A DNA stretch of 64,000 bases. Source: Polytrichum commune (Eukaryota > Streptophyta > Polytrichopsida > Polytrichales > Polytrichaceae). Numbering within the stretch: position 1 is the first letter of the stretch; the number at the start of each line of letters is the position of its first letter. Of this stretch, positions 45,928 through 48,378 are shown piece after piece. The translations under genes were made by a program, and so were the position numbers. The DNA lies in NCBI GenBank assembly GCA_950295325.1, contig OX485805.1, positions 20,943,501 to 21,007,500 of the forward strand, read 5' to 3'. The notes under the pieces were generated by a model that was given only the letters and a program-made list of their open reading frames with translations, did not search any database and had not been told where the DNA came from.

Positions 45928-45978
45928 CAATTGTTGAAGAGTAGTCGACACACCAAGGCGACTACTCTTCAATAATTG
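45928..45978. repeat. 20-bp-arm hairpin at the LINE target site
   Basis: CAATTGTTGAAGAGTAGTCG (45928-45947) and CGACTACTCTTCAATAATTG (45959-45978) are inverted with one mismatch and an 11-nt loop. The last three bases of the right arm begin the LINE target duplication. Confidence 0.9.
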
Positions 45979-45987
45979 TCTAGTATT

Positions 45988-48057
45988 AAACATTTCTACT
46001 CCCCATATCCCCGAGACGGAGTTTTTGGATCAATAGGCACATCATTCCAATACAAATGGCATGGACACGGATATGCCCATCCACACATAGAAAAAGAAGC
46101 CCAAGAAGCCCTTCATTGGGCACGTCTCGCTTCCAAAAACAACTCAGACACAATCACAATCCTTCTAACACCAGATCAAAACTGGTATCACAACCTTAAC
46201 CCCCACAAAGGACCTTTTCCAAACTCACATGTTATCGCACACTTCAAAGCCGACACCATCACATACGAAGAACCAACAATTCCACTAGAATTACGAATTG
46301 AACCTAGAATAGAAAACCGCGCCATACACACTCTATGCGTACACCATAAAGGCATACCCACTGGATCAAAAGAATATACCCAACGAATGTACAATATTGC
46401 TAACACCCTACAAATACCCGCAATATTTGCCCAACCCGCACCACCTACACCGCAAGACACCTCAGTAAACCACAGTTTAAAATGGTCCAAACTCATATAC
46501 CCGCCTCACCCACATACCACCCCAACCCCCAACACTCCACTAATCACCAACATCGACAGATGTATACCCCTCAAATACCTACCACAATTTTGCTACTACA
46601 CAGACGGATCATTCAAACCACCTAAAGAAACATCTCAAGCACATTGGAAATGCGAAAAAGCAGGGTATGGTATCTACAACTCTATAAAGAATCTAAAAAT
46701 TACAGTAAGACTACCAGGGCTACAAAACATACTACAAGCTGAAATGATGGCCATACACCACACTCTTTGACTCCTGACCACCACATATCGTGATGAACCA
46801 CCACATATCTTCATGGACTGCCTTAATGTCCTATATTTATTAAACACTCAAATCAAACACCCCACACTACATAATAGCCACCCAAACAAAAATATCCTTG
46901 AATCCATGATCATAATGCTACAATCCCGCACACAAATCACCACAATCCACAAAGTCAAAGCCCATGCTAGCATAAACGGTAATGAACAAGCAAACACATT
47001 AGCCAAAATAGGATGTGAACTAGATCACAGAGACGTTGTAATGCCACACGAACATGCACACCCTACACCATACTACCTCCAAAAAGACTGGTGGCATTCA
47101 ATGCAAGAAACACCATATAAAGGCCCTATAAGACACCTTGGAAAACACGTCCTCAAATATGACAAAAAATATAATTTAGAAGTCATAGCTAACCAAACAC
47201 ACCAACTACATAAATGGCTTGAAAACAAAGATATTGACAAGACATTATCAAACAATTTTTGGACTAACCCAAGTGTCACGGACAAACAAAAAACATGTCT
47301 AGTCAAATTCTGGATGGGACAGTACATGGGCCAAGCCTGGAAGCAGCTCTTCTTTGGTAGAGAAGCCTACCCATCAAAAAAGTGCCCCATCTGCAACTCA
47401 TCAGATGCAGATACATGGTTACATGTACTACTCAAATGCAAACAACAACACATTCATGCACTAATAACAAAACGACATAACAAAGTTGTATGGGAAATAC
47501 GTAAACTAATTTTGTCAAATAAAATATCTAAACACTATACACTCATGAATGCGGGAATGTACAACGACCAACCTCAAGAAAATACCGTGCCAACATGGCT
47601 ATTGCCATGCACATGTGGCACCCAGAGATGCCACTGCAACGCCAGGTTTAAACCAGACATATTGTGTGTCATAGGACATCCATATAACCACCCCCCACCA
47701 GAAACCCCTACAACATGAATCACCATACAATTCATAGAATTTACATACTACAATGATAGATTTACCGTAGAAACCCTTGATAGGAAAACCACAAAGTACC
47801 AACAGCTCATCAATAACATTATCTCAAGGGAATGGAATGTAGCCCCACTCATGGTATTAGTCGCAGGCGCAAAAGCCACTACACACATCCCATCAATGAA
47901 AAACCTGGAAACAACACTTAATCTTTGTCTCATAAATATAAAAAACACATTTCAACAAATTAACATTATCGCCACACAATATGCACACTCAATACTAGTC
48001 CATAAACGAAGACTAGAGAACAAACAATCAGTCACAAACCTCCATGACCCATCATAA
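45988..48057 (+). pseudogene. LINE ORF fragment: MTase-like, RNase H, CCHC, RLE
   Basis: One frame runs about 690 codons with two TGA stops (46768-46770, 47716-47718). It starts inside a domain with FYSPYPRDGVFGSIGTSFQY, GHGYAHPH and ITILLTPDQNWY. This layout recalls phage-type DNA adenine methyltransferases, but the expected NPP(F/Y) is degraded to AHPH. RNase H follows: YTDGS (Asp, 46603), LQAEMM (Glu, 46741), IFMDCL (Asp, 46816), VKAH, and NEQAN where the fourth acidic residue is Asn (46993). Next are a CPIC...H...C knuckle (47383 on) and RHN, the signature that precedes the restriction-like endonuclease of R2/NeSL-type LINEs. FKPD (Asp 47656), FIEF (Glu 47737) and DRKTTKY (Lys 47785) match a PD-(D/E)-K nuclease order. 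RNase H plus RLE is known from Dualen/RandI LINEs of green algae. Reverse transcriptase is missing. Confidence 0.82.
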
Positions 48058-48263
48058 CTAAATAACCTATCTCATAAAGTGGAACACCTTACCATATAAA
48101 ATAATGCCACCTTATTGGAAAACACCAATAACAACTACCACATACTACCGGTTACCGGTTAACCGGTTATTGTCTACTCCCTACAAAGGGTGAAGTAGTT
48201 CTACATCTAATGCCATTGCCCTAGGGCGTGGCTAAGGATGTTTGACGAACAAATACTCTATTC

Positions 48264-48300
48264 ACTCCGGCCTCCTCCGGAGACCGGAGTTCTTCTTCTT
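48264..48300 (+). other. LINE 3' hairpin and TTC tail
   Basis: ACTCCGG (48264-48270) pairs with CCGGAGT (48284-48290). The loop contains the self-complementary CTCCGGAG. The tail TCTTCTTCTT follows and abuts the target duplication. LINE reverse transcriptases of several clades recognise a 3' stem-loop next to a short tandem tail, so this is the likely recognition element. Confidence 0.7.
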
Positions 48301-48378
48301 TTGTCTAGTATTGAAGTCAATTGCTAACTAGCAGTCAACTTTGCAAGGTGATTGCATTAGCGTAGTCGATAAACCAAA

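Follow-up and report, generated by a model that had tools for sequence, protein, structure and literature searches.

Can one plant retrotransposon carry both an RNase H and the restriction-like endonuclease (RLE) of R2-type LINEs and, if it can, to which kind of element does it belong? The question is posed by an insertion in a 64,000-nucleotide stretch of the Polytrichum commune genome (contig OX485805.1, positions 20,943,501 to 21,007,500; this whole stretch is called the window below). A preliminary description, made from the letters of the window, read the insertion as a young LINE in which RNase H motifs are followed by an RLE and which would either extend the architecture of the algal Dualen/RandI elements to another lineage or form a new clade. 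Our analysis points to an insertion that is very probably a dead, 5'-truncated copy, the tail end of a Dualen/RandI-type LINE.

The insertion is bounded by two exact copies of the 12-bp string TTGTCTAGTATT (Table 1), at the limits originally given for it. Both occurrences of this string in the window flank the element (shuffled windows hold a mean of 0.04 matches each); because its TT may be part of the tail, the duplication measures 10-12 bp. The reading frame from 45991 to 48057 closes at a TAA and contains, as had been counted, two internal stops, both of them TGA. Its translation reads YTDGS, QAE, MDC and VKAH, then C-x2-C-x9-H-x4-C, RHN, KPD, FIEF and KTTKY, so that every motif claimed for this one frame is present and in the order claimed. 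Ahead of the RNase H stands the remnant of a PCIF1/CAPAM-like domain, in which HPHI occupies the NPPF position. Pfam searches of three window pieces returned no RNase H or nuclease and one match at chance level; being uninformative on such pieces, they left a question that the window alone could not decide.

Table 1. Features of the LINE copy and its flanks, in window coordinates
Feature	Position	Strand	Evidence
Left target-site duplication, TTGTCTAGTATT	45976-45987	+	exact match to 48301-48312
5'-truncated LINE copy	45988-48300	+	exact flanking duplications; homology with at least 126 scored places in the genome, this copy counted
C-terminal part of PCIF1/CAPAM-like domain, end approximate	45991-46281	+	alignment; PF12237 in long relatives; PCIF1 structures matched by profile
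RNase H domain, ends approximate	46588-47020	+	D-E-D-H-D pattern readable; PF00075 in 6/6 long relatives scanned
In-frame TGA within RNase H	46768-46770	+	translation
CCHC zinc knuckle C-x2-C-x9-H-x4-C	47383-47439	+	motif, alignment
RHN motif, RLE start	47473-47481	+	invariant in 13/13 rows; in stretch aligned to PDB 8gh6/8ibw 940-979
PD of PD-(D/E)XK site	47653-47658	+	P in 13/13 rows, D in 12/13
In-frame TGA within RLE	47716-47718	+	translation
Acidic residue E of RLE site (FIEFTY)	47737-47739	+	invariant in 13-row alignment
KX2KY, catalytic-lysine position of LINE RLEs	47785-47799	+	invariant in 13-row alignment; role from PMC5678591
ORF2 stop TAA	48055-48057	+	translation
First 3' UTR stem-loop	48198-48246	+	consensus structure of 9 sequences
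Second 3' stem-loop, directly before tail	48264-48290	+	consensus structure
(TTC)n-type 3' tail	48289-48300	+	sequence
Right target-site duplication, TTGTCTAGTATT	48301-48312	+	matches 45976-45987

The assembly comprises 408 Mb in 64 contigs, of which seven measure 42-78 Mb. Searched throughout at the protein level, it yielded 4,553 rough candidates, from which 126 places were scored, with identities of 73-100%; open frames of more than 1,200 codons contain 13 of these places. The preliminary description had pointed to the assembly as the place to look for full-length copies, and long relatives are indeed found there. Nine were examined, seven at first and two more (L041 and L042) later; the longest single ORF2 frames run to 2,919 and 2,924 codons, the other copies being broken. 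From its N-terminus, the ORF2 of these relatives comprises a leader with 2A-like peptides, APE, RT, a linker, the PCIF1/CAPAM-like domain, RNase H, the knuckle and the RLE. Taken with its upstream neighbour, L012 measures about 12.8 kb from one duplication to the other and includes an ORF1; its ORF2 is split over frames, so that it is other copies that document a long unbroken ORF2. Over most of its length this ORF1 has no Pfam match (the two ORF1 pieces scanned end some 60-130 codons short), NCBIfam yielded no match over cut-off for the two ORF2s and the single ORF1 piece searched, and the viral_contigs search produced no relatives. The 5' leader, taken as the first 2 kb of L009, L010, L012, L014 and L015, is a mosaic whose blocks match across distant subfamilies and also repeat within single copies, which suggests recombination or template switching. 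Upstream of the L009 copy there is a frame for a Copia-type polyprotein (L030:6-3998, minus strand).

The distribution of the family bears on the possibility that these sequences belong to an algal contaminant of the assembly, an idea that would agree with PMC4438587, where the accessible text records Dualen/RandI for green algae only. Copies are present on all seven chromosome-sized contigs, which contradicts contamination, and the assembly has its own plastid contig (C8, 146,561 bp) with rbcL, matK and rpoA; we give this explanation almost no credence. The Rubisco large chain is closest to plant chains among the entries of recognisable source, and of 42 matches for dirigent genes, which are typical of land plants, 41 are over cut-off; together with the plastid genes this speaks for a plant host, probably a land plant. 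Fragments of plastid matK also occur outside the plastid contig, on contigs C1, C2, C3 and C5, two of them with several stops, and fragments of rbcL on C3 and C2.

The long relatives carry a nuclease that the window copy lacks. Pfam finds RVT_1 and RNase_H over cut-off in all four ORF2s scanned, and upstream of the RT in the same four it finds the APE families PF03372/PF14529, three times over the curated cut-off and once, in L015, below it. For L041 and L042 it reports RT, RNase H and PCIF1_WW, all over cut-off, and no APE at E 0.01; the catalytic strings of APE are present in 6/6 proteins covering the region, these two included. RNase H is placed downstream of the RT (PF00075 over cut-off in 6/6 ORFs scanned) and keeps its H, within KAH or RAH. 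The window copy is without APE because it is 5'-truncated. The proposed pairing of RNase H with RLE is borne out, with the correction that the long relatives have an APE as well. Peptidase families were detected neither in the four ORF2s at E 0.1 nor in two ORF1 pieces ending about 60-130 codons short.

Whether the C-terminus is an RLE can be judged from its motifs. LINE RLEs have been described by a CCHC knuckle of spacing CX2-3CX7-8HX4C, by RH, PD-(D/E)XK and GXW, and by KX2KY, the published position of their catalytic lysine (PMC5678591). Throughout a 13-row alignment of family C-termini, 42-86% identical to the first row, RHN, P, E and KxxKY are invariant and D is kept in 12 rows; the knuckle reads CX2CX9HX4C, one residue beyond the published x7-8, and GW stands in place of GXW after the fourth strand. 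We composed a search pattern from the knuckle, RH(N/D), PD, an acidic residue and KxxKY. It is found in 23 of 29 family loci, the window copy (its stops read as X) included, the six without the full pattern being L002, L003, L004, L006, L007 and L021. It is absent from the eight other retroelements of the genome that were searched (seven LINEs and one Gypsy, not all of these loci spanning a complete C-terminus), from five further loci and from 10.9 million shuffled residues, where a looser pattern without the knuckle matched two places. The pattern having been composed after the family was seen, the shuffles test chance and are no independent discovery. Profiles of the C-terminus matched only two PDB entries, 8gh6 and 8ibw (E 1.8 with seven rows, 0.19 with 13), both R2Bm, and did so over the knuckle/RHN part. 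The C-terminal profile missed three further R2 sequences that the RT profile recovers; phmmer with a single C-terminus against the PDB gave one unrelated weak match (E 0.23). The R2Bm match at E 0.19 being specific but weak, homology with RLEs rests mainly on the motifs. An AF2 model of the last 297 codons of the window copy (single sequence, TGA read as R) had a pLDDT of 33 and was worthless. A profile test of this region, as the preliminary description envisaged it, gave a divided answer: the hallmarks are conserved, and the best profile match, at E 0.19, falls short of significance. At the motif level the C-terminus is nevertheless a predicted R2-type RLE, and since it shares one ORF with RNase H, the core of the original proposal holds.

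One could object that the family belongs to the APE-only LINEs with an RNase H (I-group or plant L1 type) and that its C-terminus amounts to a zinc knuckle, the PD...E...K after it having arisen by chance. APE LINEs too end in a CCHC knuckle (PMC5678591), and the R2Bm match is weak and lies mainly over this part. Chance would, however, have to account for RH, PD, E and KxxKY being kept between subfamilies whose identity to the first row drops to about 42%, and for the absence of the RLE motif from the seven other LINEs and the Gypsy element, even though not all of these loci span a complete C-terminus. The RTs argue in the same direction. In a 15-row tree with long branches, built with two R2 references and no Dualen sequences, the RTs of five family members fall together (100/100), and so, separately, do those of the genome's seven other LINEs (96/99). 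An RT inside an APE-only clade had been named in advance as evidence against the proposal; the family RT instead stands apart from these same-genome LINEs. The latter, which are plant L1-like, have an RT in 7/7 cases and an APE at E 0.01 in 6/7, in common with the family, and RNase H or PCIF1_WW in 0/7 at E 0.01; RNase H, the PCIF1-like domain and the RLE motif are found on the family's side of this comparison only. We therefore consider an APE-only identity very unlikely.

Compared against the PDB, the RT profile matches R2 proteins best (2.6e-40 and about 1e-34), then L1 ORF2p and 8c8j (about 1e-25), then R2Bm (3.5e-23). The likeness to R2 thus comprises three R2 sequences as best RT matches and the RLE hallmarks (knuckle, RH, PD, D/E and KX2KY). 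R2 inserts into 28S rDNA and is not known to have an APE or an RNase H, whereas three copies of the present family have three different target duplications.

The family might alternatively be an RLE LINE resembling Utopia, a group not known to have an APE, that captured an RNase H. This has to be weighed, as Dualen/RandI, the exception known to the preliminary description, is not the only published one: oomycete Utopia elements also combine RLE and RNase H (PMC4640811). Their RNase H, however, is of the archaeal type with R and precedes the RT, and they target U2 snRNA genes (PMC4640811). The RNase H described here follows the RT and has H (KAH/RAH), an APE is present, and the three target duplications differ from one another; the domain order in particular contradicts a Utopia-like identity, which we regard as exceedingly improbable.

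Between RT and RNase H, all four ORF2s contain a match to PCIF1_WW (PF12237), over cut-off in two, and L041 and L042 exceed the cut-off as well. A profile of this region matches PCIF1 structures in the PDB (best E 0.00078), and PF12237 has been re-identified as a CAPAM-like methyltransferase (PMC7641849). Across the genome all 150 places scored are over cut-off, making at least 150 of 697 candidates; the domain was found in 0/14 control genomes, a contrast that says little since the controls named in other searches were prokaryotic. What the family shares with PCIF1/CAPAM methyltransferases is the PF12237 domain without NPPF, their catalytic motif: it is missing from 10/10 proteins, the window fragment among them, and its positions read AHPH, AHPP and AFPT in the alignment. 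The domain is thus apparently dead as an RNA-methylating enzyme and, NPPF being lost yet the domain conserved, may bind RNA rather than methylate it. The first reading of the locus had missed this domain, which the long relatives reveal; we found no description of a LINE-encoded PCIF1 domain in the literature searched, which was covered incompletely.

Equally overlooked at first were 2A-like motifs, for which the pattern GDI(E/Q/H/D)xNPGP matches 398 times genome-wide (reversed control: 0). In the copies examined for reading frame they are in frame with ORF2 and precede the APE, and the leader carries one to three of them. In-frame GDIE forms are present in L009, L012, L013, L014 and L042; L015 has GDIQ and GDIH only, and L041 only GDIK. 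StopGo peptides are defined as (D/G/C/N)(V/I)ExNPGP, and H at position 14 is highly active and E14Q partly so, the K of L041 falling outside the assay values taken from this source (PMC12846837). The GDIE forms of the family agree with the sequence definition and are putative ribosome-skipping peptides. Such sequences are known from other LINEs and can function in plant cells (PMC4981915); for natural use of 2A by plant viruses, the accessible text of a 2026 survey reports no evidence (PMC12846837).

All domains tested are under purifying selection. Pairwise dN/dS is 0.04-0.19 wherever computable (nine pairs), with 0.07-0.17 for APE (4/9 pairs), 0.08-0.16 for the PCIF1-like domain (nine) and 0.05-0.18 for the knuckle and RLE (eight), values to be read with the caution that most dS are near or above 1 in 7/9 pairs and that three cells in two pairs are saturated. 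The recent activity ascribed to the window copy is not borne out: its nearest relative is only 94% identical, and other rows of the subfamily are 86-90% identical, apart from one 339-bp piece at 91%. L009 and L012, of a sister subfamily, are 98.9% alike over 8.4 kb, and the family has therefore been active more recently than the window copy suggests.

Copies are united by their 3' ends. Among the best 40 DNA matches, 31 (the window copy and 30 of the 39 others) reach the last query base directly, with differing 5' ends, and another six do so by way of a distinct 3' piece. The tails are (TTC)n or (TATC)n and have two stem-loops in front of them; in the consensus of nine sequences 11 of 27 predicted pairs show at least one double change, with a covariation energy term of only -0.08. 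Target duplications of 12 bp (window copy), 15 bp (L002) and 12 bp (L012) differ in sequence, and each may be 2-4 bp shorter because the tail could supply its first bases. Of eight 3.9-kb loci, six end in a tail that can be recognised, and in two cases, L002 and the window copy, a duplication accompanies it. None was seen at any boundary of the six long copies L009-L014; with 4 kb more of upstream sequence one appeared in one of three long copies, L012. Copies without a duplication may start outside the sequence examined. L008, L009, L010, L012 and L013 have in common a block of 3' UTR (for example L013:8838-9110) that contains tRNA-like strings (TAGCTCAG..., ...GAATCGAACC...); a tRNA-like nature of this L009-type 3' UTR was considered and dropped, ARAGORN and Rfam finding nothing (Rfam covered the block copies except L008).

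How close does this bring the family to Dualen/RandI? Those elements unite APE and RLE (PMC3636483) and also have RT and RNase H (PMC4640811), and RandI of green algae ends in short non-A 3' repeats (PMC3747384, table 3). From the placement of the Dualen RT it has been concluded that APE-type LINEs originated when an APE took the place of the RLE (PMC4640811). Dualen/RandI is present in all the Chlamydomonas relatives compared in PMC8226300, and annotation added cryptophytes to its hosts in 2025 (PMC12747079). The family shares with Dualen/RandI, by description of the algal elements, the APE, RLE, RT and RNase H and the short non-A 3' repeats; it differs from those descriptions in its plant host, its PCIF1/CAPAM-like domain, its 2A-like peptides and the failure to detect a protease. 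The Dualen of Chlamydomonas, according to an abstract of 2005, is said to encode a cysteine protease. These differences could mean that APE, RNase H and RLE were assembled independently, in a new clade that works like Dualen and is of separate descent, the more so as the comparison is by description and the RT tree has no Dualen reference. Against such an origin, the domain set matches the unusual one described for Dualen, and the 3' repeats resemble those of RandI in green algae (PMC3747384); we consider it unlikely, if less so than an APE-only identity. By architecture, set against descriptions rather than reference sequences of Dualen, the family is in all likelihood a Dualen/RandI-type dual-endonuclease LINE, and the suggested extension to another lineage is realised in the long relatives of a plant genome. 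In a literature only partly covered we found no report of Dualen/RandI from mosses or other land plants; relative to that coverage, the plant host, the PCIF1-like domain and the 2A-like motifs are apparently new.

From the parts and their order, their conservation, the 3' structure and the duplications in three copies, we infer that the element moves by target-primed reverse transcription. The long form, of about 12.8 kb in the one duplication-bounded copy, comprises ORF1 and a giant ORF2. Bound to the (TTC)n tail and to both 3' stem-loops, the RT would start synthesis at a nick introduced by one of the nucleases. Second-strand cleavage, probably by the other nuclease, would give rise to the 12-15 bp duplications, and RNase H would clear away the RNA template. 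At the 2A-like peptides the ribosome would set the leader free from the enzyme, and the PCIF1-like domain might bind RNA, perhaps at a capped 5' end. One could go further and envision a LINE that keeps both nucleases for one nick each, holds its own capped RNA by means of a dead cap-methyltransferase fold and makes use of StopGo. Taken as a whole this is a speculative and rather doubtful scheme; were it true, StopGo would be in natural use in a plant genome, which would be notable in itself. The PCIF1-like domain would be an unexpected accessory for a LINE. Finally, both nucleases, the APE and the knuckle-RLE, still look constrained, and the family may thus offer a living system in which to ask why two are kept.
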